Of a stretch of DNA of 20,189 bases, positions 671 to 14,872 are shown piece after piece. Under the pieces are notes generated by a model that was not told the origin of the DNA, ran no database searches, and was given only the letters and a program-made list of their open reading frames with translations. Numbering within the stretch: the stretch's first letter is position 1; each line of letters starts with the position of its first letter. This DNA comes from a virus. Location of the stretch: IMG/VR virus record IMGVR_UViG_3300047476_000241, positions 1 through 20,189 of that record, one strand, 5' to 3'. The position numbers were made by a program, and so were the translations under genes.

Positions 671-831
671 TTCTCTAATGCCTTATTAATGTGATCTCGA
701 ATTTCTCTTAGTGTGTTTCGACACTTCTCTTTATACCAGCCGTCAAACAAATCACAATTCATATCATATGCAAGACCGTCAATTTGTCTGACAATATAAT
801 TATACAAGGGTTGCTTGTCTTCGTTCTTCAT
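667..831 (-). CDS. Small phage protein, 54 aa, unknown function
   Basis: The ATG at 831-829 opens a 54-codon frame ending in TGA at 669-667. The product begins MKNEDKQPLYNYIVRQIDG and ends in a helical, charged segment (RNTLREIRDHINKALEK). It overlaps the end of the phosphomannomutase gene by 32 bases in another frame, and its TGA overlaps the next ATG as ATGA. A GAGAG sequence lies about 10-14 bases before the ATG and may act as a ribosome-binding site. I do not recognise the family. The 4-base overlap downstream supports translation; the long upstream overlap is unusual but common in compact phage genomes. Confidence 0.6.
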   Translation of the reverse strand: MKNEDKQPLYNYIVRQIDGLAYDMNCDLFDGWYKEKCRNTLREIRDHINKALEK

Positions 832-1507
832 CACATATATCTCTCAAAATATCATACGTATTTTGCCAGTCTCTCACCCAATGCGCGTGATCTGCAAGCA
901 TATAAATTGAATGGTCATTGCCGCCAGTTTCACACCGATCACCAAAGAACATGAAAGGATATACATACTTTGCAATCTGAGACTTGTCTTTACCCTTCAG
1001 AAAGATATCAATGCCTGTTTCACCACCAACCACACATTCAAGTCGTGGGAACATACTGTTAAGTCTTTGACAAATTATTTTACGTTCGTCTGTAGCATTG
1101 TCCCATTCAATGTATTGTTGTCTCTGCACTTTATTTGCATTGCGACCAACTATAGAAAAGTTGACAGTGCCAATACGTAGTTCAATATGTTTGCCAGTTC
1201 GAACAGAGAAACCTGAAATCATTGTTTCTTTTTCAAGAGCTTCTCTTTCTTGTTCAGTAAGAACAAAAATATTCTGGTATACTCTAATACCTCTCTTTGT
1301 CAAGACATTACCAGAGCAATTGAAGATTCCTTCGACTGCATAGCAGATATCAGAACCCAATTGCTCTTCGGTTTTCTTGTAGTCTGAACCTGTAACAATG
1401 TAGACAGGATGTGTCTTACAGAAGTTCAGAAAGAACTTCTCAAATTCATCATCAATATGTTCTCTTGATGGAGTAAGAGTGCCATCAACATCGAAGACAT
1501 AGTTCAT
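800..1507 (-). CDS. Phosphomannomutase, eukaryotic (HAD) type
   Basis: This 235-residue protein carries the motifs of the PMM1/PMM2 family of HAD phosphomutases, which convert mannose-6-phosphate to mannose-1-phosphate. DVDGTLT at residues 6-12 has the two catalytic aspartates (D6 and D8). VTGSDYKKTEEQLG at 38-51 matches the family IVSGSD...EQLG. RIGTVNFSIVGRN at 111-123 matches the sugar-phosphate binding RNGMLNISPIGR. GGETGIDIFLKGKDK at 161-175 and FFGDRCETGGNDHSI at 188-201 match the Mg-binding end. The length is close to that of human PMM (about 250). Most bacteria use the unrelated alpha-D-phosphohexomutase ManB, so the eukaryotic type in a phage is notable. It would supply precursor for GDP-mannose and for the Gmd/ColD/ColC genes nearby. 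Its ATG shares one base with the preceding stop (TAATG). Confidence 0.87.
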   Translation of the reverse strand: MNYVFDVDGTLTPSREHIDDEFEKFFLNFCKTHPVYIVTGSDYKKTEEQLGSDICYAVEGIFNCSGNVLTKRGIRVYQNIFVLTEQEREALEKETMISGFSVRTGKHIELRIGTVNFSIVGRNANKVQRQQYIEWDNATDERKIICQRLNSMFPRLECVVGGETGIDIFLKGKDKSQIAKYVYPFMFFGDRCETGGNDHSIYMLADHAHWVRDWQNTYDILRDICDEERRQATLV

Positions 1508-2100: not shown

Positions 2101-2973
2101 CTAAACGTATGCGGAAATCAACTTTTTGATTGTCTCTTTGATAGCATCATAATCCTCATACTTCTCAAAGATATAGTTTGATTTAACAAGAATTCCCATT
2201 GTAAAGCAATCTGAATGTCTAATACCGTATGCATAGAACGTCTTGCTTGGATCATTCAAGTTTTCACCAGTTGAAGCGAAACAAAAAGGACCAGAGTTCC
2301 GGCCTATGATCAAGCTACATGCGCGAGAGAGATATGCAATCTCATTCAGATCACAGTTATCTGACCGAATAATCTCTGCTGTATGTATCACGTTTGCTAG
2401 GCTAGTGCGAATTTGATTTGTTGTCAGAAACGTGATGTTTGGATGCTTTTCAGCGGATTCTACAATGATATCTGCCATGTCACCAGTGTACTCACATTGT
2501 CCTGATAACACAACACCATTTGAGAAGAGTATCTTTGTATTGCTGTTTGTATTCAACCAATCATCAATCTGGTCAACCTTGAACTTGCTATAATCGACAT
2601 ACGGCATATAGTCTTCTATAGGACCCAATTTCAAATTTGTCTGAAAATACTGGTTGATCAACGCATAGATGTGTTTCCACATCTTCATGTTGAAGCTTAG
2701 TGTACATTCACCTTCATATAGATCAAAATATGATCCGATCCATGTGTTTACTAACAACACATCTTGTTCAGCCCAATGAAACGACTTCACCTTATCGGTG
2801 AGTCCTCTGACTTTAGCATAACCTATCTCTAGGTCTTGTAACACCTTTGGATCTTTCTCATGTGCGTATTGAACGTTCTCTTTACCTAAAGCAGAGATAA
2901 CTTCACGCACAAACGGCTTGCTGTGAAACAGGTCACCATTGTGATAGAAATTGAAGAAACAAAGTTTAGTCAT
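2101..2973 (-). CDS. Putative GT-B-like glycosyltransferase
   Basis: This 290-residue protein has a C-terminal segment, NEIAYLSRACSLIIGRNSGP at about 216-235, that resembles the nucleotide-sugar-binding end of GT-B enzymes of the heptosyltransferase type (E-x-A-x-L-x-x-A...IG-x-x-SGP). No clear GT signature is seen in the N-terminal half, which is rich in aromatic residues. Its ATG overlaps the stop of the preceding DUF4254-like gene as ATGA. That pairing supports a glycan role, because DUF4254 proteins often sit beside glycosyltransferases. It could transfer the sugar made by the ColD/ColC pair just upstream, but acceptor and donor cannot be told from sequence. The glycosyltransferase class is an inference. 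Confidence 0.5.
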   Translation of the reverse strand: MTKLCFFNFYHNGDLFHSKPFVREVISALGKENVQYAHEKDPKVLQDLEIGYAKVRGLTDKVKSFHWAEQDVLLVNTWIGSYFDLYEGECTLSFNMKMWKHIYALINQYFQTNLKLGPIEDYMPYVDYSKFKVDQIDDWLNTNSNTKILFSNGVVLSGQCEYTGDMADIIVESAEKHPNITFLTTNQIRTSLANVIHTAEIIRSDNCDLNEIAYLSRACSLIIGRNSGPFCFASTGENLNDPSKTFYAYGIRHSDCFTMGILVKSNYIFEKYEDYDAIKETIKKLISAYV

Positions 2974-3329
2974 TGAATGCCCTTATACAGCTTAACAGAA
3001 TTTTCACGGAGAGTTTTGGCATTCACGATAGCGTCATCAATGATTGCATTCAATGCGGCAACGAGCTTAGGCCTCTTAACCTTAAAACAGATATCAACCT
3101 TGCGCTTTAGATCAGCCAGTTCTTCATCAGACTTAGCCGCCTGCATAGCATCTTCAAGGTGCCATGTGCGAATGTGAAGTATAGCCAGTTTCTCTAACAC
3201 TTCACCAATGCTATCAGATGCAGCATAATCAGGTGGTTCAACACCCCACATAGACTTCATATCTAATTTTTCGTTCACATACTGCTTGATTGTAATATCA
3301 AGCATCTCTGCAATAATCTTATTGCTCAT
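2970..3329 (-). CDS. DUF4254-like protein
   Basis: I chose the ATG at 3329, which shares a base with the ColD stop (TGATG), over the in-frame GTG one codon earlier, giving 119 residues. The segment EKLAILHIRTWHLEDAMQAA resembles the DUF4254 core (N/H-x-x-LWHxED), and a later segment, RPKLVAALNAIIDDAI, also fits its closing helices. DUF4254 proteins are small helical proteins of unknown function, frequently encoded next to glycosyltransferases in polysaccharide clusters. The stop overlaps the next ATG as ATGA, so this protein and the downstream transferase are probably made together and may interact. Confidence 0.55.
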   Translation of the reverse strand: MSNKIIAEMLDITIKQYVNEKLDMKSMWGVEPPDYAASDSIGEVLEKLAILHIRTWHLEDAMQAAKSDEELADLKRKVDICFKVKRPKLVAALNAIIDDAIVNAKTLRENSVKLYKGIQ

Positions 3330-4483
3330 CACAAATCTCCAATTATCTGTTCAAGTAGATCCAGTTCTTTTTTACCAACAAACTGGTTATTGCCTATGTA
3401 TATGCCATTCTCATGTACGATATCAGCATTCGGACACACCATCATATTATACTTTGAAAGATATGGTTGACGGAGCAAATTACCGCCCACAACTGGACGA
3501 TACTCAATACCATTCATGATCAACTCATGTATCAGGTCGTTCTTTATCTTCTTGTCTTTTGCGACGAATGGAAAACAGAAAGAACTGTTGCCGGTGTCAG
3601 GGAAAGGAATGTGAAAGATATCGTTTCTGTCACGAATGATCTTATGATATCGGTCAAAATTCTTTCTTCTTATATCAATGAACTGATCCAATCTCTTCAA
3701 CTGTGAAAGACCAAGTACAGCACCTAGTTCAGTGTTTCGGAAGTTATAGCCGGCAGTCACGAATAGAAACTGAGGATCAATGTCAGGAAACAGATCGTTG
3801 AATACTTGTGGATCATCAATCACTCTGGACATACCATGAGAACGCTTCATCTTCATCAATGTATAGAGTTGACTATTGTTTGTGCTGACCATACCACCTT
3901 CAACGGTAGACATATGATGACCAAAGTAGAAGCTGAATGTTGAACCATCATACTTTGATCCAACTTTGCCAGAGACATCCTCTGCACCATGACTTTCACA
4001 TACATCCTCAATCATGACAGCTTTAGGAAACATGCTTTTCATCAAGCTAACAGAAGCAGGCAAACCAAGAAGATGTGTCGTGAACACGATATCAATTTCA
4101 TGTTTCTTTGAAATCTTTTCTGCCTCTACAAGATCAAAGCTGTAATCATACAGATTGATATCACAGAAGATTGGTTCCATACCAAGCTGAAAAACAGGAT
4201 TGACATTTGTAACCCATGTACAAGCAGGTACAAGCACCTTGATCTTCTTCTTTTTCTTGAAGTACATTTCTTTGACCGCATCAAGCAGCAAGAAATTTGC
4301 AGTGCTGCCAGATGTGACAAACAACGAATGTTCTACACCAAGCCACTTAGACCACGCCTCTTCAAACTCTTCAACTTTCTTGCCTTGAGTGAAACGATCC
4401 GCCGTCAGCACAAACTTGGCCAACTTGAAGCGATCACTCCAAGTCAATGTGTCTTTCATCAGCGGCCATTTATACGCGGTCAT
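3329..4483 (-). CDS. colD: GDP-4-keto-6-deoxy-D-mannose 3-dehydratase (ColD-type)
   Basis: The 384-residue protein is a DegT/DnrJ/EryC1/StrS-fold PLP enzyme. SGSTAN at 58-63 and EDVCESHGA at 159-167 are the cofactor-binding segments. At the position where aminotransferases carry the PLP-binding lysine it has histidine: FYFGHHMSTVEGG at 185-197, with H189 aligned to the lysine of ArnB and PerA. This His substitution is the hallmark of ColD, which removes the C3 hydroxyl of GDP-4-keto-6-deoxymannose on the way to GDP-colitose. An AGGAA site lies six bases before the ATG. The gene overlaps the preceding ColC/Fcl-like gene by 14 bases. The substrate is the product of Gmd, encoded two genes upstream. 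Perosamine synthase was considered but needs the lysine. Confidence 0.85.
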   Translation of the reverse strand: MTAYKWPLMKDTLTWSDRFKLAKFVLTADRFTQGKKVEEFEEAWSKWLGVEHSLFVTSGSTANFLLLDAVKEMYFKKKKKIKVLVPACTWVTNVNPVFQLGMEPIFCDINLYDYSFDLVEAEKISKKHEIDIVFTTHLLGLPASVSLMKSMFPKAVMIEDVCESHGAEDVSGKVGSKYDGSTFSFYFGHHMSTVEGGMVSTNNSQLYTLMKMKRSHGMSRVIDDPQVFNDLFPDIDPQFLFVTAGYNFRNTELGAVLGLSQLKRLDQFIDIRRKNFDRYHKIIRDRNDIFHIPFPDTGNSSFCFPFVAKDKKIKNDLIHELIMNGIEYRPVVGGNLLRQPYLSKYNMMVCPNADIVHENGIYIGNNQFVGKKELDLLEQIIGDL

Positions 4484-5405
4484 AGTTGTTCCTATTCTTC
4501 ATAAACCAATCAATCGTAATCTTCAATCCGTCTTCAAGTGAAGTCTTGGCTTTCCAACCGAGAGCATCCATCTTGCTGGTATCTAGGGCGCGCCTTGGTG
4601 TGCCGTTAGGCTGTGCAGTATCCCAGATGATATCACCTGTATAACCAACGAGTGATGCGATCAACTCTGACAGATAGCGAATAGATACCTCACGATTAGG
4701 ACCAATATTGATCGGCTTTGGGTCATCATGGTTGTTCATCAAGAATATAAGTCCGTCAGCCAAATCATCGGCAAAAAGAAACTCTCGCGTAGGCGTGCCG
4801 TCACCAAAGCATACCACTTGAGACAAACCTTTTTCTTTCGCGTCGATGAACCGATTGATGAATGCAGGTATAACATGACACTCATTCAGTCTGAAGTTAT
4901 CGAAAATGCCATAGAGATTATTTGGCATGACGGAAACAGTTTGCATACCATATTGCTCAGTATACTTCTGGCACATGGTAAGACCGGCAATCTTCGCGAG
5001 AGCATAACCAATGTTAGTCTCTTCTAGCGGGCCAGTCATCAAGTATTCTTCTTTGATCGGTACAGGTGCATGTTTTGGATAGATACATGCGGTACCTAAA
5101 AACATTAGCTTTCGTGTTCCATACCAGTTAGCAGCATCAATCACGTTAGTCTGAATCAATAGATTGTCACGAATAAACTCAGCGGGATATGTCTTATTGA
5201 AACCGATGCCACCAACCTTCGCCGCGGCAAGAAACACATACTCAGGTCTGAACGCATTGAACAGCTTGTTTGTTTCAGCTTGATTTCTTAAATCAGTGTC
5301 ACTGGTAAGAATGTGATAGTAACCCTTATCTCTCAACTGTCTAATCAATGCAGAGCCGACGAGACCCTTATGTCCTGCTATATAAATCTTGCTATTACTG
5401 TCCAT
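4470..5405 (-). CDS. GDP-L-colitose / GDP-L-fucose synthase-like epimerase-reductase
   Basis: The 311-residue short-chain dehydrogenase has the NADP motif GHKGLVG at 11-17 and closely follows GDP-L-fucose synthase. GTACIYP at 104-110 carries the catalytic Cys (C107). YALAK at 134-138 gives Tyr134 and Lys138, and ECHVIPAF at 175-182 gives His177. The usual serine of the SSC motif is Thr105, which can still donate a hydrogen bond. In bacteria this fold serves both Fcl (C3,5-epimerase and C4-reductase) and ColC (C5-epimerase and C4-reductase acting after ColD). Because the next gene is ColD-type, ColC activity is the better guess, but Fcl activity feeding the GT10 transferase is possible, and one enzyme might do both. 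It overlaps Gmd by 11 bases. Confidence 0.87.
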
Positions 5406-6396
5406 TGATACACATATCCTCTACAAGCTTTTCAAATGTGAACTTTGGTTTCCAACCAAGCTCCGTGCGGGCGCGCGTACTGTCACCTAGAAGAGTTTCT
5501 ACTTCAGCAGGCCTGAAGTATCTTTCATTTACACGCACACGAACAATATTGTTTTGGTCAACCGCAACTTCATTCAGACCTTTACCTTCCCATCTAAGCT
5601 TAAAACCGAAATATGGTGCGGCAGTATCAACAAATTCGCGAACAGAATATTGTTCACCAGTTGCGATCACATAATCATCAGGAGTCTTTTGCTGCAACAT
5701 AAGCCACATTGCTTCGACAAAATCTTTAGCGTGTCCCCAATCTCGCTTTGCGTTGAGATTACCAAGCTCAAGACAAGACTGATAACCACTAGAGATGCGA
5801 GAAAGACCGCGAGTAATCTTTCGTGTCACAAATGTTTCGCCTCTACGCGGACTCTCATGATTGAATAGAATACCAGAAGAGGCGTGCATACCATATGCTT
5901 CACGATAGTTCTTGACGATCCAAAAACCATAAAGCTTTGCAACACCATAAGGTGAACGTGGATAGAAAGGAGTTGTCTCGCTTTGAGGAGTTTCTTGAAC
6001 AAGACCATAAAGCTCAGATGTTGATGCCTGATAGATACGAACATCTTTTTCCATGCCAAGTAGACGCACTGCTTCCAATATTCTTAGAGTGCCAAGTGCG
6101 TCTACTTGTCCGGTGTATTCAGGAATCTCAAATGACACTTTCACATGTGACTGTGCCGCAAGATTATAAATCTCGGTTGGTCTGATTTCCTGAATTAGGC
6201 GAATGAGTGATGAACTATCTGTCAAATCCCCGTAGTGTAGATTAATAAGAGGGTAAATATGGTCGATACGATCAGTATTAATAGAACTGGATCTGCGAAT
6301 AATTCCATGAACTTTATATCCCTTTTCAAGTAGCAACTCGGCAAGATATGAGCCGTCTTGTCCTGTAATGCCTGTAATCAACGCCACTTTGTTCAT
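5395..6396 (-). CDS. gmd: GDP-mannose 4,6-dehydratase
   Basis: This 333-residue protein matches Gmd over its whole length. The NADP-binding [12 protein letters not shown] occurs at 9-20, and [15 protein letters not shown] at 34-48 is the typical nucleotide-cofactor segment. The catalytic set is T126 and E128 in STSELYG and the Y150-x-x-x-K154 pair in [23 protein letters not shown] at 179-194 and [14 protein letters not shown] further on are family signatures. It converts GDP-D-mannose to GDP-4-keto-6-deoxy-D-mannose, the branch point to fucose, colitose, rhamnose and perosamine. The start overlaps the preceding GDPD-like stop as ATGA, and the end overlaps the ColC/Fcl-like gene, so these genes form one operon. 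Confidence 0.96.
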
Positions 6397-6893
6397 AGTG
6401 AATTCCTTAAATCAACTGGATAATCTGTGCAGATAGCATAGAAGTTTTCAAAATCAATGTCTAGTGAAATGTCCCATTTAATAGCCTTGCACGTAGGATA
6501 CATCGCGATGCTATGTTCTCTCAAGAAAGAACTATCAACTGCATCAGGGTGTAACCAGATTTTGTTGTTACGCAACAGTATCGCCTGATCGATGTTATGA
6601 TAGAAAGGAATGATATTGCTCTTTTGCAACTTACACATCTCTTCTAATGCCCACAAATTCTTACAGTGTACATAGAACTCTCTGTCAGAATACCTTGAAG
6701 ACCAGTGTATCAATGTATCTAAAGAGAAAGACTTCTTTGCAGTATCATGTCCAAACCAGAAACGTTCAACGATGTACCAAATATCAAACTCAATGTCGAA
6801 GCCCTTTTCTAATGCTTCAATCAAAGCTAATTCTTCATTCTCACGGGACGGATCAGGTCCCGTGAGATATCCTCTGTGAGATACAATTCTCAT
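6393..6893 (-). CDS. Short GDPD-like phosphodiesterase
   Basis: The 166-residue protein carries the catalytic pattern of glycerophosphodiester phosphodiesterases in order: HRG at 6-8, REN at 17-19, EFD at 35-37 and GHD at 48-50, with a closing CTDYP near residue 154-158. Typical GDPD enzymes have about 240-300 residues, so this is a compact version of the TIM barrel, possibly with shortened peripheral helices. It lies between a RuBisCO-like protein and Gmd with ATGA overlaps on both sides, which points to a role in making or trimming a phosphodiester-linked or nucleotide-linked glycan part rather than in lipid scavenging. The substrate is unknown. Confidence 0.72.
6839..6867 (-). repeat. Perfect 11-bp inverted repeat inside the GDPD-like gene
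   Basis: Bases 6839-6849 (TCTCACGGGAC) are perfectly complementary to 6857-6867 (GTCCCGTGAGA), with a 7-base loop. In the mRNA the hairpin begins about 26 bases after the AUG of the GDPD-like gene, over codons about 9-18. No U-tract follows, so it is not an intrinsic terminator. It could tune translation at this junction or be a protein or RNase site. Confidence 0.7.
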
Positions 6894-8029
6894 ACTTTTA
6901 CAGCATCTACAGCTTTACGCATTTCAAGTGAACCGGCTTTTGTGCCACCTTCATGTGAGTGAATATATCCACCAACATTTGCCATCCAATCAACACCAAC
7001 AATATCTACAATCGGCTGAACAAGACTTGGCTTCATTCCACATGATAGTGCAGGCACAACATTCTGTTCGTGAAGAACATTGATAACATTCTTCATCTCT
7101 TCTTCATCATCACTCAAATATCCTCCGAGCATACCTGCATGAATAGTGTCTACGCCGCAAAGACCAGCAAGGTAACACAATACAGACCAATCAATGTGAT
7201 ATCGATGCGTCTTCTCTGTCAGAACCTTGTCACCACTCTTCTGATAATGAATGTAGAGAGGTAAATCAAGATCACGAATTGTCTTATAAGCGCCTAGACC
7301 AGACCAGATATTGATATGAACTCCTGTACCACCTTCATTTGCTACAAAACGGGCACGACTTGTTACTGTATGCGGATCACCATTGATACAGAACGTATAA
7401 ACAACTTTACGACCGCACTTTGCAAGATAATTAGAAATGAGAGGCACTCTCTTATCAAGAGTACAGATAGCCGGGTTAGCAAGTATCTCATCTTCTTTGA
7501 TGAAGTCTACACCACCCTCAACAAGTTCTTTTGTCATTTCTAGCAATTGTTCTGGTGTGATACCAGTCTTAGGCTTGACAATACCACCAAAGAAAGGCTT
7601 GTCATATGACCCGGTATACTTACGCATACCGCTGATACCATACTTAGGTCCTTTGAAGCCAGCTTTTTGCTTATCGATAGAAAGTCCAACAAGATGACAT
7701 TGAGTGATGTTATCAATGTCCATTTGGCCGCCCATCAAGAAGCACATCAACTGTGCAACACCATCGGTAGACCAATTAATGTTTGCATATGGGAATCCAA
7801 TCCAAACATGGCCGCTATTCACTCGCTCTAGATTATCATCATATAAAATCTTTGCAGAATGATTGTCGATCATCTCTGTTGTTTCCCAAACGCTTCGCGC
7901 ATTTGGATTACCGATACTCTGTCCTATCGCTAGTTCTTTAGCGGCAGCCATGAGAGTTGTCTTAGACTCCAAGAAATACTTGGCCCAGAAATACTTTTCA
8001 TTGTCAAATTCGTTAAGAATAATATCCAT
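6890..8029 (-). CDS. RuBisCO-like protein (form IV type)
   Basis: The 379-residue protein shows the RuBisCO large-chain barrel. GGIVKPKTGITPEQ at 148-161 holds the equivalents of Lys175 and Lys177. GGVDFIKEDE at 172-181 keeps the carbamylated Lys201 and metal ligands Asp203 and Glu204 (K178, D180, E181). IHYQ at 260-263 keeps His294, and TIHAG at 295-299 keeps His327. SCGMKP at 329-334 and VGGYIH at 352-357 form the phosphate loops. Carboxylase residues are lost: loop-6 Lys334 reads Tyr304, Arg295 reads Tyr262, and the N-terminal Glu60, Thr65/Trp66 and Asn123 are not seen. It should therefore be a non-carboxylating enolase, isomerase or decarboxylase-type enzyme acting on a phosphorylated sugar. 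It lies between a nucleotidyltransferase and a phosphodiesterase, with overlaps on both sides. Confidence 0.87.
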   Translation of the reverse strand: MDIILNEFDNEKYFWAKYFLESKTTLMAAAKELAIGQSIGNPNARSVWETTEMIDNHSAKILYDDNLERVNSGHVWIGFPYANINWSTDGVAQLMCFLMGGQMDIDNITQCHLVGLSIDKQKAGFKGPKYGISGMRKYTGSYDKPFFGGIVKPKTGITPEQLLEMTKELVEGGVDFIKEDEILANPAICTLDKRVPLISNYLAKCGRKVVYTFCINGDPHTVTSRARFVANEGGTGVHINIWSGLGAYKTIRDLDLPLYIHYQKSGDKVLTEKTHRYHIDWSVLCYLAGLCGVDTIHAGMLGGYLSDDEEEMKNVINVLHEQNVVPALSCGMKPSLVQPIVDIVGVDWMANVGGYIHSHEGGTKAGSLEMRKAVDAVKV

Positions 8030-8748
8030 TATGCACCCTTATATCTCAAATATTTTTGTAAATCTTCTGGAGTTCCAATCGGATGATGCCGCTTGATATC
8101 ATAGATTTCAATCTTTGCACCTTCTTCGATCATCATGTTATATGTCGGACAAATATAGAACTCATTGTTTGTTCTGATATTGAACTTTATCATACGCTGT
8201 GCTGAAGCGAAGAAATCATAAGCTTTCTTCCATGCATAGACACCAACTGTGGCCACATTGCTGATAACAACCTTCTCGGCAACTTCTACAACATACTTTC
8301 CTAATTCATCCATCTTAGCATAGCTGTGCTTCTTATCAAGGCTTCTGAATGTGAAGATTGCTCCGTCCATGTCACCGGTATAGAACCAATCATAGAAATC
8401 TTCTCGGTGATATTCCATGATCTGATCAGTGTTAGCGATGATGAGAGGAGCATCAGGATTGATAGCAAACTTACCGAGCAGTGCTGTACATGCAGCGCCC
8501 TCTGTCAATCCGTCTACTTCAACGATCTTGTATGAATTAACTCTTTTGAAAGCCTGTCTGAGTTTATCACCATATTGGTGCATGTGTGCTTTCTGCACAA
8601 GGAACACATAATCATTCTCATATCCCATATTTTCGATAACACGTTCGATCATGGGTTTACCAAGCACATCTACTAATGGCTTTGGGTCTTCATATCCACA
8701 TTCTGCGAAACGCTTACCTGCGCCCGCCATCGGTAAAAGTATCTGCAT
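8029..8748 (-). CDS. Sugar-phosphate nucleotidyltransferase-like protein
   Basis: The 239-residue protein has the NTP_transferase signature LLPMAGAGKRF at 4-14 followed by PKPLVDVLGKPMIERVI at 22-38. LTEGAACTAL at 81-90 is the nucleotide-recognition loop and IANTDQIM at 104-111 carries the metal-binding Asp108. It is shorter than full mannose-1-phosphate guanylyltransferases and lacks their C-terminal domain, resembling compact capsule cytidylyl- or uridylyl-type enzymes. It activates a phosphorylated compound by transfer of an NMP. Candidates are mannose-1-phosphate, which would complete the GDP-mannose route, or the product of the RuBisCO-like protein encoded immediately after it (TAATG overlap). 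The base and the substrate cannot be fixed from sequence. Confidence 0.8.
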   Translation of the reverse strand: MQILLPMAGAGKRFAECGYEDPKPLVDVLGKPMIERVIENMGYENDYVFLVQKAHMHQYGDKLRQAFKRVNSYKIVEVDGLTEGAACTALLGKFAINPDAPLIIANTDQIMEYHREDFYDWFYTGDMDGAIFTFRSLDKKHSYAKMDELGKYVVEVAEKVVISNVATVGVYAWKKAYDFFASAQRMIKFNIRTNNEFYICPTYNMMIEEGAKIEIYDIKRHHPIGTPEDLQKYLRYKGA

Positions 8749-8749
8749 A

Positions 8750-9454
8750 TTAACCTCTCAATTTATTCCATGCGCTAAAGTCATCACGTATGAGGGAGTG
8801 CCTCATGCTGCCATACTTATCCGGCTCAAAAGGATGGTCAACATCAACATAGACCATATTGTCACCAGATAGACCATAAGCTTGCAAATTTGCACACATC
8901 AATTCTTCACCATTATATGGGCAACCTTGGCCATGAATGAAGTCTATGTTGTTATAGGTTTGTGCATACATGTTCATCACTTCAGGTGTGCCGTATGCAT
9001 ATTGGTCATTTGCAACGGTGTGCTGCGGATTCTGCCGGCAATTAGGCACATAAATCTTACCCGCTTGAACTTCTTCATATGCAAGCTTCTTGTTGATAGC
9101 GAAGTCGAAGCGCGAACGAATGACCACATCATACTTGATATTGAATGTCTGAGCATATTTCTTACACACATGATTGCACATGAAAACAGAGTAGAACATC
9201 TGTGTCGTGTTGTATGCAGGATATTGTGGATTGCCTACATTATACTTCTTGAAGAAATTTTCATTCAAGGGTAGTTCATAAGTCATGTCGGCAGGCTTAT
9301 AGAGTCCTTCGATCTTGTCTAATAGTTCGGCAGGATATAACCATGAGTGAATGAAGACATCTACATCATAATGATCAAGAAGGTTCTTCTTGTGATACTC
9401 ATAACCTTTTTCAAATGATCTAGGCTGGCCAGATAAACATAATGCAATTTTCAT
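8750..9454 (-). CDS. Putative glycosyltransferase-like protein
   Basis: I chose the ATG at 9454, which overlaps the FkbM stop as ATGA, rather than an in-frame ATG 15 bases upstream, giving 234 residues. The N-terminus MKIALCLSGQPRSFEKGYEY and then DVDVFIHSW resemble a class of phage and algal-virus proteins annotated as hypothetical or transferase-like, which begin with a Rossmann-type strand, SGQPR and a V-x-x-H-x-W pattern. YDVVIRSRFDFAINK around residue 107-121 looks like a GT-A strand with an acidic end. Catalytic residues cannot be assigned. The position inside the glycan operon supports a transferase role. Confidence 0.5.
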   Translation of the reverse strand: MKIALCLSGQPRSFEKGYEYHKKNLLDHYDVDVFIHSWLYPAELLDKIEGLYKPADMTYELPLNENFFKKYNVGNPQYPAYNTTQMFYSVFMCNHVCKKYAQTFNIKYDVVIRSRFDFAINKKLAYEEVQAGKIYVPNCRQNPQHTVANDQYAYGTPEVMNMYAQTYNNIDFIHGQGCPYNGEELMCANLQAYGLSGDNMVYVDVDHPFEPDKYGSMRHSLIRDDFSAWNKLRG

Positions 9455-10074
9455 CGTGAGAATATCCAATCTTCTTGTACAACAACACCGGTTGATGGAT
9501 CATGATTTTGATAGATGGGTTCAACTAACAAATTCTGCTTAAAGCCAAGACTGGACAAGAATTCTGCTACTTCATCCTTGAGAGGTGCGCCTTTATTATA
9601 TTCTTGCAGCGTCATTTCAATCTGAACATGCTTTGCTTGAGCGAATGTCTTTTCACCACCCTTGATGATATCAACTTCTGAACCTTGAGTGTCCATCTTG
9701 ATGAACTCGAAAACTTTTTGTTCACCAAACTTTTCAAAGATCACCTCATCTAGAAGCTTGGTCTGAACAGTCATGAAGTCTTCTGGATTATAATGAATAG
9801 TGTTTTCTTGATAGTAAGAGACACCGGTGCAAATCATGTTCTTACGATTGATGTAGAGCTTTACATCCTTCTTCTCGTTAGAGAGACATGCGATTTCATA
9901 TGGTACACCGATACGGCTCAAGTGATTATCACACCAAGGATTGGCCTCAAGCATGAAGATATCAATATTAGGAAAACAGTACTTGATCACATGTGAGTAT
10001 CGACCAACATTAGCACCAATGTCCAGTACACTACTGATCGAATTCTGATCAATGAAGTCTATTACTTTCTGCAT
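9451..10074 (-). CDS. FkbM-family methyltransferase
   Basis: The 207-residue protein has the SAM-binding motif VLDIGANVGRYS at 16-27, an acidic residue after the second strand (MLEANPW), and the FkbM core FIKMDTQGSEVDIIKGGE near 123-140. FkbM enzymes are SAM-dependent O-methyltransferases often found in polysaccharide and glycopeptide clusters, where they methylate sugar hydroxyls. Here it lies between a GT10 transferase and a second transferase-like gene, so methylation of the transferred glycan is the likely role. The gap to the preceding gene is two bases and the stop overlaps the next ATG. Confidence 0.87.
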   Translation of the reverse strand: MQKVIDFIDQNSISSVLDIGANVGRYSHVIKYCFPNIDIFMLEANPWCDNHLSRIGVPYEIACLSNEKKDVKLYINRKNMICTGVSYYQENTIHYNPEDFMTVQTKLLDEVIFEKFGEQKVFEFIKMDTQGSEVDIIKGGEKTFAQAKHVQIEMTLQEYNKGAPLKDEVAEFLSSLGFKQNLLVEPIYQNHDPSTGVVVQEDWIFSR

Positions 10075-10076
10075 TA

Positions 10077-10961
10077 TTATTCACCTTTGTAAACATAGTT
10101 TAAGAACCAGCGCCTGAAGCGATCTAAATCTATATATCTGTTCTTTGGATTGATGAAAGGAGTATTCATCTTCTTAAGCCACAGATCCATGTTCTTATCT
10201 ACCAACATAACATGGGCTATCATCTCTGCATCAGTTTCAAAATCATGACGATTGATGAAAGCTTCTGTATTGAAATCCATATCGACAACAGGACTACCCC
10301 AGTAAATAGGCAGTGTGCCTGCTATACGCGCATGAGGAAGTTTTTCTGTTACGTAACCTGGATAAGAACTGTTCTCATAACAAAGATTGAAACGATAGTC
10401 TTTCAAAAATTCCATCTTATGTAGTTGAGCCTCTGGACCTCTAGGTATGACACGACCAATGTTATTGAACAATGGACCTGCGGCATCTATTTGCCGATAT
10501 AAAGACAGAAACTCAAACATGTTATTACGATTATGACTGCCTCCATTACCAGAAACAAAACCACAAAACTTTGTGCGACTGTGCCAGTCATCAGATGTTA
10601 CTGTAGTCTTGTTAACATCATACAAACTCTTGCATCCCATTCTCACACCATTGAAGTTGTCAAGAATGTAGAGAGGCAGACGGTAGAACGGAGACCCATC
10701 AATAAAATCAAATGAGATGGCAAAGTGTGCCTGATAGTTCCATGGTCTACGATTTTCACCAGTGAAGAAAATCTTTCGTACCTTACTAACATCATAAGAT
10801 AGGTTTTTAGTACCAAATGTTTCATCTGCGAAGATGAGGTATTCTGGATTTTCATCATCACGTTCAATGTCAAATAATACAGATAGAGTGTCTAAAAAAA
10901 ATTCATCCATCGTAGGATAATAGTCGGTGAATCCAAGTTTGAGTTTAGGCTTCGTCATCAT
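10077..10961 (-). CDS. Alpha-fucosyltransferase-like glycosyltransferase, GT10
   Basis: The 294-residue protein matches bacterial alpha-1,3-fucosyltransferases of the Helicobacter pylori type. GFTDYYPTMDEFFLDTL sits at 10-26. KFCGFVSGNGGSHNRNNMFE at 131-150 matches the KFCAFV...RN block. YRFNLCYENSSYPGYVTEKL at 189-208 is the GT10 signature holding the donor-binding Glu196 and TEK. PIYWGSPVVDMDFN at 218-231 follows. GT10 enzymes use GDP-L-fucose; a related GDP-6-deoxyhexose such as colitose is possible here. It sits in the same operon as Gmd and an Fcl/ColC-like enzyme that could make its donor. The C-terminal heptad repeats of H. pylori enzymes are absent. It overlaps the preceding gene by 17 bases. 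Confidence 0.9.
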   Translation of the reverse strand: MMTKPKLKLGFTDYYPTMDEFFLDTLSVLFDIERDDENPEYLIFADETFGTKNLSYDVSKVRKIFFTGENRRPWNYQAHFAISFDFIDGSPFYRLPLYILDNFNGVRMGCKSLYDVNKTTVTSDDWHSRTKFCGFVSGNGGSHNRNNMFEFLSLYRQIDAAGPLFNNIGRVIPRGPEAQLHKMEFLKDYRFNLCYENSSYPGYVTEKLPHARIAGTLPIYWGSPVVDMDFNTEAFINRHDFETDAEMIAHVMLVDKNMDLWLKKMNTPFINPKNRYIDLDRFRRWFLNYVYKGE

Positions 10962-11841
10962 ATTTCACTCTCATCTTTTCAGTTAGTCCAGCAATCCGAT
11001 CATACTGGTGTACAATACAGAAAGGAATGCCGTGGCTGTTACACACAGTACCGTCTTCTTGAATGATTGGTTGCTTATACATGTACTTTGTTTGATACAC
11101 AATCTGTGCAGTAGGATCATTTCTTTGACCAATATCACCAGCACCAGATTGAATGGCTGCCAAAGTTGTGCCGAGATTGCATGTCCAACCGGAATCATTA
11201 CCAAAGAACTCTGCACGACTTTTAACCAGATCAGTATTCAGAATGAAATTGTAGACTGCCTGATCGACAATGTTGATGGGTCTATTGATACTTAACTGCA
11301 AGATCATAAGCATGATATCACGAACAATATCAAGTTGACCTGCCATAACACCTACATTGTATATCTCAATGCGCTTGATGAGATTGTGAAAGAATGGCCC
11401 AAAAGCTTGTAGATAGTTATTGTTACCCCATGGTTCGTCTTCATATGCAAGGCCTTCGCCGGCGGCAACGAAATCACACATATCATCGAATGCCAGAAAG
11501 TCAGAAGGATTTCTCTGAAATACCACATCACGAACATCTGTTGCGATTACAAAATCATACTCTGTACCACATGTGTTCAGAAAGTTCCAGATATGAAAGA
11601 ACCTTTCAACATGAGGCGGCATTTGTTGGTGTGTAACGTAGTTGCCTCCAGCATCTTCACGACCATAAGGAACTACGATAGCACCGGCGGCAGTAATCTT
11701 CTTGATATCTGTTGCATAGATGTTCGTAGCTAGAAGAACGATATCGCCTTCAAAACCAGACCTCTTTGCAGAATTGATCCAGTATTTTACTTTATCGTAA
11801 TCGTAGTTCGACATGCCGCCTATGATTAGGTCTTTACTCAT
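10945..11841 (-). CDS. Putative GT-A-type glycosyltransferase
   Basis: The 298-residue protein begins with a strand, DLIIGGMSNYDYDKVKYW, and has FVIATDVRDVVFQRNP at 97-112. There the D102-x-x-D105 motif after hydrophobic residues resembles the metal-binding site of GT-A enzymes. NVGVMAG at 162-168 and IVDQAVYN at 191-198 are arrangements seen in GT8-like and related families. I cannot place it in a numbered family. Its ATG overlaps the stop of the HNH gene as ATGA. Donor and acceptor are unknown. Confidence 0.62.
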   Translation of the reverse strand: MSKDLIIGGMSNYDYDKVKYWINSAKRSGFEGDIVLLATNIYATDIKKITAAGAIVVPYGREDAGGNYVTHQQMPPHVERFFHIWNFLNTCGTEYDFVIATDVRDVVFQRNPSDFLAFDDMCDFVAAGEGLAYEDEPWGNNNYLQAFGPFFHNLIKRIEIYNVGVMAGQLDIVRDIMLMILQLSINRPINIVDQAVYNFILNTDLVKSRAEFFGNDSGWTCNLGTTLAAIQSGAGDIGQRNDPTAQIVYQTKYMYKQPIIQEDGTVCNSHGIPFCIVHQYDRIAGLTEKMRVKYDDEA

Positions 11842-12341
11842 TTTTCATTCCTTTTCTTATGAGACATACACATTTTCTGTTTGGTTTCTTCTGTTGCTTT
11901 GTTACCGAGTTTTGCGTATCTCATTTTAGTAAGTGTTTCGATGGTGTATACTTTACCCTGATTTATCTTACTGAGATATTGTTTTGTTTCTTCTGTATGT
12001 TTGAAAGATAAGTTACGACCTAAAGACCATCCTTCTTTCAAATATTCATCAAGCTGATCAGGATAAACTTTCTTTACGATACCATTCTTATGAATATTCT
12101 TTCGGCCTTTATTGGTCTGTCCTGCTTGTATGATAGCTCTTCTTTTTGCTTCGTCAAGACCAATTTGACCGGATAAGAAATGCCAAGCAATTTTATCTTG
12201 TTCGTGTCCTAAATCTTCCCATAGTTGCTTGTGTAGTTCTGCATGTTGCTCAACAGTTACGCAAACTAAATTAGATGCATCATTACTACCTCCCATGTGC
12301 CGAGGTATGATATGGTGAAAGTGATGCATCACTTTAGCCAT
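11838..12341 (-). CDS. HNH homing endonuclease with NUMOD3-like repeats
   Basis: The 167-residue protein starts with an HNH domain: HHFHHIIPRHMGGSNDASNL at 6-25, then EQHAELHKQLW with the closing histidines. The C-terminal half has NUMOD3-like DNA-binding motifs, SFKHTEETKQYLSKINQGK and ATEETKQKM. This is the layout of free-standing homing endonucleases that spread between phages. It is rich in Lys and Gln and looks more AT-rich than its neighbours, consistent with late arrival. It is inserted between two glycosyltransferase genes yet overlaps both (13 bases upstream, ATGA downstream), so it is translated within the operon. Confidence 0.85.
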   Translation of the reverse strand: MAKVMHHFHHIIPRHMGGSNDASNLVCVTVEQHAELHKQLWEDLGHEQDKIAWHFLSGQIGLDEAKRRAIIQAGQTNKGRKNIHKNGIVKKVYPDQLDEYLKEGWSLGRNLSFKHTEETKQYLSKINQGKVYTIETLTKMRYAKLGNKATEETKQKMCMSHKKRNEK

Positions 12342-13090
12342 GGCAGTTCTCCATTGTAGTTCTTCAGTTGCTGTTCATTACCTAACAAGAAGAAGTCTGC
12401 TGTGACTGAGTTAGGATTTCCATCAAGACGATAACAGAGTGTGTGTTTCCTGTTACAATCCCATTTTGGGTTATAGTTTAACGCATTGTAGAGATAATGT
12501 CTATCACCGCCCCAACCATGGTGCCAGTGATGTGAAGTCTTATTAAGGAATTTTCTATTGAATGCAAATGCTGAAGTATCAATGAGCATCTGCGGTTGTT
12601 TGTCGAAAGTCATGTAGATTGGCCATTTACCTAATGCTTCACAATTGTCATCGCAAACGTATGTCTTATTCGGTTCAAAAATTTTGCGAAGAGAGTATGC
12701 GAAGTCATTGCCGCGATCTAGAACTTCTACAAGAGAAGAAACATGGTCTGGCTCATACCAATTGTCTTCGTCAAGAAAGAAGATGTAATCTGAATTGATT
12801 AGATGTGGCATACCGGCATAGATGCGATGACCGTAAAAATTACCTCCTGCTTTACCTGTGTTAAATGGTAAAGTGGTTACTGTAATATTATCATGTCCTT
12901 TATTTTCATAATCATACCTTACTGGTATATGGTCGATAGTATCTTTCCAATACTCAATTCCATCTACTACAATTAGATGTTTGATATTAGAATATGTCTG
13001 TTGCTGAACCGAGTGTATTGCATCTTTAAGCTTAGGAGAGCCGATGGTGGGTGTGATTACTGTCACAGATTTTTCGATGATGAGTTTCAT
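12329..13090 (-). CDS. Glycosyltransferase family 2-like protein
   Basis: The 253-residue protein has the GT2 beginning TVITPTIGSPKLKDAIHSVQ at 10-29 and a following HLIVVDG at 38-44. FFLDEDNWYEPDH at 104-116 contains the DED (107-109) metal and nucleotide-sugar motif. It lacks membrane segments and is likely a soluble or peripheral transferase. It is the first gene of the glycan operon. Its ATG lies about 14 bases after the T-run of the terminator-like hairpin that follows pstS, with TAGG as a weak ribosome-binding site. Donor and acceptor are unknown. Confidence 0.8.
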   Translation of the reverse strand: MKLIIEKSVTVITPTIGSPKLKDAIHSVQQQTYSNIKHLIVVDGIEYWKDTIDHIPVRYDYENKGHDNITVTTLPFNTGKAGGNFYGHRIYAGMPHLINSDYIFFLDEDNWYEPDHVSSLVEVLDRGNDFAYSLRKIFEPNKTYVCDDNCEALGKWPIYMTFDKQPQMLIDTSAFAFNRKFLNKTSHHWHHGWGGDRHYLYNALNYNPKWDCNRKHTLCYRLDGNPNSVTADFFLLGNEQQLKNYNGELPWLK

Positions 13091-13155: not shown

Positions 13156-14118
13156 TTATTGTAGAGAGATTAGACCCTTTTCGGTAAGATACCCTTCTTC
13201 ACCGATTGCGTCTTCGCTTTTGTATGCTTCCATAAACTCTTTCAAGTTTGGTATAACATCAAAGTGTTCATTTTTAAAGTAAACAAACAATGGACGAGAG
13301 ATGGGATATTCACCTGCCTTGATTGCATCATACTCAGGAGCAACACCATCAACAGTTGCACCCTTTACGATGTTGGCGCTTTCTTCAAGAAATGAGAAAC
13401 CAAAAATACCAAGTGCATTTGGGTTATTCTGTAGCTTCTGAATGATTAGAGTATCATTTTCACCAGCTTCAATAAATGCGCCATCTTCACGCATGGACTT
13501 ACACATAGACTTTTCTTCATCTTCTGTAACAGTCAGATTGTTGCTCTTGATAGCTTCCTTACATGCCTTTTCCATCACAAGTTCAACAAAGGAATCTCTG
13601 GTGCCAGAAGTAGGCGGAGGTCCAAGAACTTCAATCTTACCATCAGACAGTGCAGGATTTACGTCCTTCCATGTCTTGTATGGATTCTCAACAACTTCGC
13701 CATCAATGATAACGAACTTGGCTAGTGCGCGATAGATATCATCCTTAGTCAAGTTCATATCTTCATGTTCCTTTGCCATAGCAAGGACGATAGCATCATA
13801 ACCAATCTTGACTTCGGTTGCAGTCACACCATTTGTTTTACACATCTCAATTTCACTGTCTTTCATAGGACGCGATGCGTTCACTGCATCAGGCGTATCT
13901 TCTCCAACACCAGCGCAAAACAACTTGATGCCGCCGCCTGTACCAGTGGATTCAACAACAGGTGTTGGTGCACCAGTTGTCTTACCAAACTGTTCTGCTA
14001 CCGTAGTTGTAAAAGGATAGACAGTAGATGATCCGACAATTCGGATTTGATCACGGGCAGCAAGTGCTGGTGCAATAGCAAGGCTGAAAGCAACAGCAGC
14101 AATTAAAAGTCTCTTCAT
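13156..14118 (-). CDS. pstS: Periplasmic phosphate-binding protein PstS
   Basis: I chose the fifth-codon ATG at 14118 because GGAG lies six bases upstream of it and it begins a clean signal peptide, MKRLLIAAVAFSLAIAPALA, with ALA/A as cleavage site. This gives 320 residues. The mature protein shows the phosphate-binding loop GSSTVYPFT at 29-37, GTGGGIKLFCAG at 59-70, NASRPM at 80-85 and TSGTRDSFVEL at 170-180. PstS binds phosphate for the host PstCAB importer and is a known auxiliary gene of marine T4-like phages, thought to sustain phosphate uptake during infection. The version with FCAG and NASRP resembles alphaproteobacterial PstS. It is flanked by terminator hairpins on both sides. I saw no Pho box upstream. 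Confidence 0.94.
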   Translation of the reverse strand: MKRLLIAAVAFSLAIAPALAARDQIRIVGSSTVYPFTTTVAEQFGKTTGAPTPVVESTGTGGGIKLFCAGVGEDTPDAVNASRPMKDSEIEMCKTNGVTATEVKIGYDAIVLAMAKEHEDMNLTKDDIYRALAKFVIIDGEVVENPYKTWKDVNPALSDGKIEVLGPPPTSGTRDSFVELVMEKACKEAIKSNNLTVTEDEEKSMCKSMREDGAFIEAGENDTLIIQKLQNNPNALGIFGFSFLEESANIVKGATVDGVAPEYDAIKAGEYPISRPLFVYFKNEHFDVIPNLKEFMEAYKSEDAIGEEGYLTEKGLISLQ

Positions 14119-14130
14119 ACACTTCTCCAT

Positions 14131-14220: not shown

Positions 14221-14369
14221 TACCAATTGCTCCTTTGATTGTGAGACATACGATCCCACTCACGCTGGAGAAATTCAAGATGTATTCGATCTGTAGCCTG
14301 ACTTAGATATGAGTACATTCGTTCTTGTTCGCTTCGCGTTTTGAACAGTCTCTTTAGATATGAAACCAT
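14220..14369 (-). CDS. DUF3563-like miniprotein, 49 aa
   Basis: The ATG at 14369 shares a base with the hsp20 stop (TAATG). The product has a basic start, MVSYLKRLFKTR, then ERMYSYLSQATDRIHLEFLQ and REWDRM. The arrangement YL-x-x-A-x-D-x-x-x-LE-x-x-x-RE-x-D resembles DUF3563, a family of very short bacterial proteins of unknown function. One amphipathic helix is likely. It is probably co-transcribed with hsp20. The function is unknown, and the family match is by eye over about 25 residues. Confidence 0.6.
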   Translation of the reverse strand: MVSYLKRLFKTRSEQERMYSYLSQATDRIHLEFLQREWDRMSHNQRSNW

Positions 14370-14872
14370 TACTTGTCGCCGTACTTTTCGTTCAAGAACT
14401 GCTTGGTTGAAGTATCAGGTGTATCTTCACCAATGTTGATCTTCTTTGGCTTCTTATCTTCAGGAATGAAACGTTCAAGCCAAATCTTTAGCATACCATT
14501 AATAAGGTCTGCATTCTTGACTTCAACCGTGTCTGCAAGAGTGAACTGACGGGTGAACGCACGATCAGCAATACCCTTGTGGATATAATCTGCATCTTCA
14601 GAAGACATTGATCCCTTGATGGTAAGCTTACCATCTAGAATTTCGATTTCTAGATCCTGACGACCAAAACCGGCAACCGCTATTTCGATGACATACTTTG
14701 TCTCATCGATCTTCTTAATGTTATAGGGAGGATACGTAGGAATCTTTGGCATAGAACTGCCGATTTCAGCAAGCTTATCAAAGATCGGCTCGAAACCGAT
14801 TGCAGTATTAAACTGCTTTGGTAATGTGCTGAAAGAAAAAGGATCAAAGTGGGGGATTTTAGTGATAGACAT
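14369..14872 (-). CDS. Small heat-shock protein Hsp20
   Basis: The 167-residue protein has an alpha-crystallin domain: YVIEIAVAGFGRQDLEIEIL near 58-77, then GKLTIKG, FTRQFTLADTVEV and NGMLKIWLER. INIG near residue 145 resembles the C-terminal I-x-I anchor that links dimers. GGAG lies about eight bases before the ATG. Hsp20 is a common gene of T4-like aquatic phages, where it probably protects folding proteins or virion assembly; that role is inferred. A degenerate tRNA-like element precedes it and a DUF3563-like gene follows with a one-base overlap. Confidence 0.93.
   Translation of the reverse strand: MSITKIPHFDPFSFSTLPKQFNTAIGFEPIFDKLAEIGSSMPKIPTYPPYNIKKIDETKYVIEIAVAGFGRQDLEIEILDGKLTIKGSMSSEDADYIHKGIADRAFTRQFTLADTVEVKNADLINGMLKIWLERFIPEDKKPKKINIGEDTPDTSTKQFLNEKYGDK

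Follow-up and report, generated by a model that had tools for sequence, protein, structure and literature searches.

A candidate colitosyltransferase of family GT10 in the glycan operon of a T4-like marine phage

The GT10 glycosyltransferase encoded in the window, the whole stretch of viral DNA analysed here, probably has GDP-colitose as its main native donor; on the evidence of sequence we put the probability of this at about 60%. The initial annotation had offered GDP-fucose or GDP-colitose, an alternative that was framed correctly and that a histidine in ColD, a reductase clade bound to ColD and bacterial GT10 genes located beside ColD tilt towards colitose. The window is the entire length of an IMG/VR record (20,189 bases) from a T4-like marine phage, recognisable by genes for the clamp loader (gp44, gp62) and for a virion protein that shares 61% identity with Synechococcus phages. 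Genes for a PstS-like phosphate-binding protein (13156-14130) and an Hsp20 (14369-14872), both usual in cyanophages, are also present. Fourteen genes on the minus strand, from 13090 down to 2101 and with intergenic gaps of -19 to +2 bp, form one operon that holds both GT10 and the donor-making genes, as initially proposed. The genes for GDP-mannose 4,6-dehydratase (GMD), a reductase and a ColD-type enzyme form a contiguous triad with overlapping genes; GT10 lies apart from them, with the gene for a RuBisCO-like protein (RLP) and others in between, a separation that counts against the colitose reading. The features, in the order of the argument, are:

10077-10961, minus strand: GT10 glycosyltransferase of the HpFucT type, 294 amino acids, ATG start (PF00852, PF18025, 2nzw)
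5395-6396, minus strand: GMD (PF16363, 9e-150; TIGR01472 gmd)
4470-5405, minus strand: Fcl-derived epimerase/reductase, proposed GDP-colitose synthase in the role of ColC (PDB GDP-fucose synthases, E 1e-83)
3329-4483, minus strand: ColD-type GDP-4-keto-6-deoxymannose 3-dehydratase (PDB ColD 2gms, E 3e-54)
2970-3332, minus strand: DUF4254-like small protein, usually after ColD (PF14063, 7.4e-06, just below the cut-off)
2101-2973, minus strand: protein without a Pfam or PHROG match, usually after the triad, found in most viral ColD loci
800-1507, minus strand: eukaryotic-type phosphomannomutase (PF03332, 2.6e-23)
10945-11841, minus strand: GT-A fold glycosyltransferase upstream of GT10 (AlphaFold2 and Foldseek; no Pfam match)
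12329-13090, minus strand: GT2 glycosyltransferase (PF00535, 3.1e-12)
9451-10074, minus strand: FkbM-type methyltransferase (PF05050, 1.3e-18)
8750-9469, minus strand: DUF7796 protein (PF25072, 1.3e-09)
8029-8748, minus strand: sugar nucleotidyltransferase-like protein (PF00483, 3.5e-07)
6890-8029, minus strand: RLP inside the operon (PF00016, 4e-32; PDB 2cwx, 1e-35)
6393-6893, minus strand: phrog_34507 protein, GDPD-like by sequence only (phrog_34507, 8e-18)

A chance resemblance of the 10077-10961 product to GT10 is excluded. Its C-terminal half matches the GT10 donor domain PF00852 (E 1.1e-15, 58.2 bits against a cut-off of 23.9) and its N-terminal half matches PF18025, FucT_N (E 2.4e-13), as is true of 34 of 34 aligned relatives. 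Among solved structures, its sequence is closest to that of HpFucT (2nzw, E 1e-26), with 66 of 188 aligned positions identical (35%). An AlphaFold2 model built from the 34-row alignment (pLDDT 94.4, pTM 0.89) has a predicted GT-B fold like that of HpFucT; in a Foldseek search seven HpFucT chains ranked first (E 9e-22 to 8e-19, TM 0.76-0.81), followed by FUT9, mango FucT13 and Arabidopsis FUT11. The assignment to the HpFucT kind of GT10 thus holds, as does the claim that the resemblance spans the whole length, with the closest match in the donor domain of the C-terminal half; no heptad repeat was noticed at the C terminus. In HpFucT, E95 is the catalytic base, E249 stabilises the oxocarbenium ion and Y246 and K250 contact GDP-fucose (PMC4202792, PMC11468063). 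All six residues compared, E95, R195, N240, Y246, E249 and K250, are kept, as E69, R145, N197, Y203, E206 and K207, and so the donor-binding Glu and Lys, on which the initial annotation had made its proposal depend, survive careful alignment. Given its family and these residues, the enzyme almost certainly uses inverting chemistry. Neither the fold search nor the sequence of GT10 names an acceptor, and none of the window's genes can be assigned to the synthesis of LacNAc or type-1 chains; the Lewis-like structure suggested for the phage is therefore unsupported.

The supply of a donor can be followed gene by gene. The GMD scores 548.6 bits against TIGR01472 gmd, above the curated cut-off of 415. 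The ColD-type protein has E. coli ColD as its top PDB match, to which it is only 34% identical, a point against colitose, as compared with 57-74% for the 80 best bacterial ColD sequences. It keeps His188 of 2gms, in the motif FGHHMST, and as this histidine replaces the PLP lysine an aminotransferase is ruled out; the same histidine is present in 66 of 66 viral and 80 of 80 bacterial sequences with a readable motif. In one other phage a further dehydratase, RfbH-like and with additional cysteines (CYC...CGTC; L154:4255-5544), is encoded besides ColD. In the established colitose pathway, GMD, ColD and an epimerase/reductase together yield GDP-L-colitose, colitose being 3-deoxy-fucose. With GMD, an Fcl-derived reductase and a ColD having the diagnostic histidine in a gap-free operon, GDP-L-colitose is the most likely product of the triad. 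GMD would convert GDP-mannose to GDP-4-keto-6-deoxymannose, the PLP-dependent ColD-type enzyme would take off its 3-OH, and the reductase recruited from Fcl would epimerise C5 and reduce C4. GT10, as an inverting GDP-L-sugar transferase, would then move L-colitose onto an acceptor of a phage-directed glycan, probably together with the adjoining GT-A and GT2 enzymes, and the glycan could decorate the virion or remodel the surface of the infected cell. This scheme, including donor, acceptor and role, is built on gene identities, retained catalytic residues, gene order and linkage patterns, all of which are observed directly. The phosphomannomutase could plausibly act upstream, supplying mannose-1-phosphate that feeds GDP-mannose. 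The DUF4254-like protein and its family-less neighbour (2101-3332) follow ColD in most viral triads and are possible parts of the colitose module. The GT-A protein (AlphaFold2 pLDDT 92.2) has WbbM, alpha-1,3-GalT and LgtC as its nearest folds in Foldseek, and a gene like it precedes GT10 in most GT10 loci.

The same gene combination recurs in other viruses. A scan of viral contigs with a ColD alignment gave 51 loci, 46 of which have GMD, reductase and ColD together and one more of which is cut at GMD; many also carry GT10, GT11 or both. A match to psbA is missing from the 167-kb record that has the nearest ColD (L009, 97%), which makes a cyanobacterial host uncertain despite the PstS-like and Hsp20 genes. 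Scanning IMG/VR with a GT10 alignment revealed 358 stretches of viral contigs that encode a relative, the best 80 of which were kept. By their loci, which extend up to 20 kb so that some labels may be incomplete, 93 distinct viral GT10s divide into 39 linked to GDP-mannose 3,5-epimerase (GME, identified by PDB 2c59, E 9e-92), 27 linked to ColD and 14 linked to Fcl only, with 13 left without assignment. GME generates GDP-L-galactose, and GMD with Fcl generates GDP-fucose. Searches of complete GME-type phage records, up to 141 kb long, found no ColD. On a GT10 tree that includes the viral members, an analysis the initial annotation had suggested, the window protein belongs to a clade (SH-aLRT 99) of 22 rows, 14 of them ColD-linked. 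A close relative in this clade speaks against colitose: L157, which encodes GMD and an Fcl-type reductase and is ColD-less on 28.7 kb, lies inside the ColD part. All 39 GME-linked enzymes are in one part of the tree, within which ColD-linked members appear twice. Donor supply thus appears to have been swapped around one GT10 scaffold. The GT10 gene of the cultured phage S-SKS1 (L003:14846-15702) has a frame change near residue 65 that splits it into two annotated ORFs and may reflect a broken gene or a sequencing error.

These patterns bear on the alternative that fares best, that GT10 is a loose scaffold whose donor is any GDP-L-galacto sugar available in the infected cell, from colitose, fucose or L-galactose modules. 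We regard this as a real but lesser possibility than colitose. It accommodates the three supply contexts, and the catalytic and GDP-binding residues are identical in nearly every row across all of them; no residue clearly tracking the donor was found among the aligned viral GT10s. Only position 142 moved with the donor: it is Cys in all 39 GME-linked enzymes and Ser in the two ColD-bound exceptions. It is a weak lead as a donor marker, Cys being present also in 6 of 17 ColD-linked core members. A human Lewis fucosyltransferase reportedly uses GDP-3-deoxyfucose weakly. Looseness is documented in GT11, in which FUT2 and WbgN, a known colitosyltransferase (PMC12723683), each use GDP-L-Fuc, GDP-L-Col and GDP-L-Gal, with substrate availability stressed by the authors (PMC11987014); a missing 3-OH is thus tolerated by fucosyltransferases, which also speaks for colitose. 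Within GT10, use of GDP-L-Gal is documented (PMC8787198). Against it, GT10s with the same donor context group together strongly on the tree (none of 200 shuffles gave a value as low), a result compatible both with specialised lineages and with shared ancestry. A loose enzyme that is fed colitose in the window phage would satisfy both this alternative and the colitose reading, and the probabilities of the readings therefore do not sum to one.

An ordinary fucosyltransferase is a second alternative, and an unlikely one: GMD and the reductase would make GDP-fucose for GT10, and a different transferase encoded in the operon would take the ColD product. In its favour, HpFucT, which is nearest among the solved structures, transfers fucose, and in S-SKS1 and L157 related GT10s occur with GMD and Fcl and with no ColD nearby. 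The reductase, too, is of Fcl descent, its identity being 42-54% with cellular Fcl as against 31-38% with bacterial ColC; a ColC-type reductase is rejected by these identities and by the position of the window sequence in a 141-row tree, in which bacterial ColC falls outside Fcl and the viral clade (SH-aLRT 100). The groups are clearly separate also in their identity to E. coli Fcl, 37-42% for bacterial ColC and 54-73% for true Fcl. The catalytic set at 107, C109, Y136, K140 and H179 reads T, C, Y, K and H, all kept as in Fcl (S/T at 107). In Fcl, C109 and H179 perform the C3/C5 epimerisation and, as both are retained in an enzyme of Fcl descent, GDP-fucose might still be formed. The reductase scores only 391.7 bits, however, against the curated Fcl model NF047922 with its cut-off of 500, and differs from Fcl by S108A, T164N, S178C, W202F and M208T.

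These differences are shared. In the 141-row tree, obtained by a short search, 45 viral reductases including that of the window form one clade (SH-aLRT 98), every member of which sits beside ColD. The clade has S108A, T164N (or A, P, D) and S178C, mostly with W202F and M208T, and keeps Y136, K140, H179 and, with one exception, C109; these pocket sites (108, 164, 178, 202, 208) were chosen after inspection of the alignment. Of 72 viral Fcl sequences without ColD, 71 retain T164, the exception (L058) being on a contig that ends inside its ColD; bacterial ColC has lost this residue too. Substitution at 164 is not a universal mark of ColD linkage: of 52 viral reductases adjacent to ColD, 7 fall inside the Fcl clade and have T164 and the Fcl pocket intact, and a tree-aware pair test of pocket change against ColD linkage was not significant (5 pairs, p 0.5). 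It is safe to state that one reductase clade is always ColD-bound and differs from Fcl around the catalytic residues; the pocket changes are one clade-level event and not independent proof of colitose synthesis.

Bacterial genomes add evidence against a fucose donor. GMD, ColC and ColD are in a row in almost all of the 80 best bacterial ColD loci. Fifty genomes with ColD were searched whole; 21 encode a GT10, which in 15 is no more than 10 kb away from ColD and in 6 lies elsewhere. The 15 of 50 is far above what the size of such an interval would give, about half a percent of a genome, with the qualification that sugar clusters gather transferases generally. The EN...TEK core is kept in 11 of 12 GT10s checked from this set. 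Of 16 genomes with GT10-bearing ColD clusters, 13 have ColC as the sole Fcl homologue found (37-42% identical to E. coli Fcl); fucose salvage (PF07959) was detected in none of the 16 and GME in none of the 13, absences that count weakly in the several metagenome-assembled genomes of the set; others are from isolates, namely two Vibrio, Neptuniibacter, Cohaesibacter, Cupriavidus, Rhizobium and Polynucleobacter. The 13 genomes with ColC but without a detected alternative thus appear to offer their GT10 only GDP-colitose, unless ColC leaks GDP-fucose. Such pairing of GT10 with a colitose supply, fucose supply being often undetected, suggests that colitose is the natural donor of the phage enzyme. 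Two large cyanobacterial genomes (L245, L246) have GT10 within 2 kb of GME, as in phages, and small cyanobacterial genomes of 1.7-2.1 Mb (L239-L244, L249-L251) encode GT10s clearly akin to those of phages, with E down to 1e-60.

The genes between GT10 and the triad were also considered as a source of the donor. The RLP keeps the KPK and K-x-D-E motifs and is altered at the loop-6 lysine site and R295, as read by eye. It has no relatives among 50,697 phage records, and it recurs beside GT10 in five viral loci (L140, L160, L161, L178, L206), in the order nucleotidyltransferase, RLP, phrog_34507-type protein. We found nothing specific on a RuBisCO-like protein in phages in the open-licence literature. 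It is highly improbable that the nucleotidyltransferase and the RLP produce some other activated sugar that serves GT10 as donor, even with their genes nearer to GT10 than the triad and the block repeated in those five loci, as most GT10 loci do not have the block, the GDP-donor residues are kept and, to our knowledge, characterised GT10 enzymes use GDP-L-sugars as donors.

With colitose as the preferred reading, a wider proposal can be made tentatively, its chances falling somewhat short of even. HpFucT-type GT10 may be a general scaffold for GDP-L-galacto sugars, with the donor set by the supply module, giving native colitosyltransferases where it is linked to ColD and L-galactosyltransferases where it is linked to GME, and with a phage colitose synthase that arose from Fcl independently of bacterial ColC. 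If so, GT10 gains a native donor besides fucose, annotators should no longer name every GT10 a fucosyltransferase, and phages make a 3,6-dideoxyhexose, a type of sugar best known from bacterial O-antigens; the ColD-, Fcl- and GME-linked enzymes would also provide matched material on how glycosyltransferases choose donors. Viral GT10s themselves are common, as the IMG/VR relatives demonstrate, and what is new is the donor pairing. The initial annotation had spoken of a new donor for GT10, should it be GDP-colitose, a phrase to be used with care, as donor promiscuity is already documented (PMC8787198, PMC11987014, PMC12723683, including use of GDP-L-Col by GT11 in the latter two), although a native GT10 colitosyltransferase would be new. 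In the open-licence literature, outside which most subscription journals fall, we found no colitose-pathway reading of phage loci, no GT10 colitosyltransferase and nothing specific on phage-made colitose.

Several known systems resemble parts of this operon. HpFucT (2NZW, 2NZX, 2NZY) has the predicted fold, both Pfam domains and the six active-site residues in common with the window enzyme, which is shorter, is only 35% identical over the aligned positions, has no visible repeat tail and has ColD in its operon. The alpha-1,2-colitosyltransferase WbgN of E. coli O55 uses GDP-colitose beside a colitose pathway, as is proposed for the window enzyme, and belongs to a different family, GT11; in S-CAM7 and ACG-2014f, the latter represented by many sequenced genomes, a GT11 directly follows the triad, and epimerases and an 'aminotransferase' or dehydrase are already annotated at this ColD locus. 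The E. coli and Yersinia colitose pathway has GMD, ColD with His188 and an epimerase/reductase in common with the window, in which the reductase is of Fcl rather than ColC descent and ColD is only ~34% identical. Closest in setting are the cyanophages S-SKS1, S-SSM7, S-SCSM2R and S-SM2, in which a GT10, already annotated in S-SKS1 and S-SCSM2R, is likewise encoded in a phage glycan operon. S-SKS1 differs from the window in having GMD and Fcl without ColD nearby, and the GT10s of S-SSM7, S-SM2, S-T4 and S-SCSM2R are in GME loci and share no more than 21-23% identity with that of the window.
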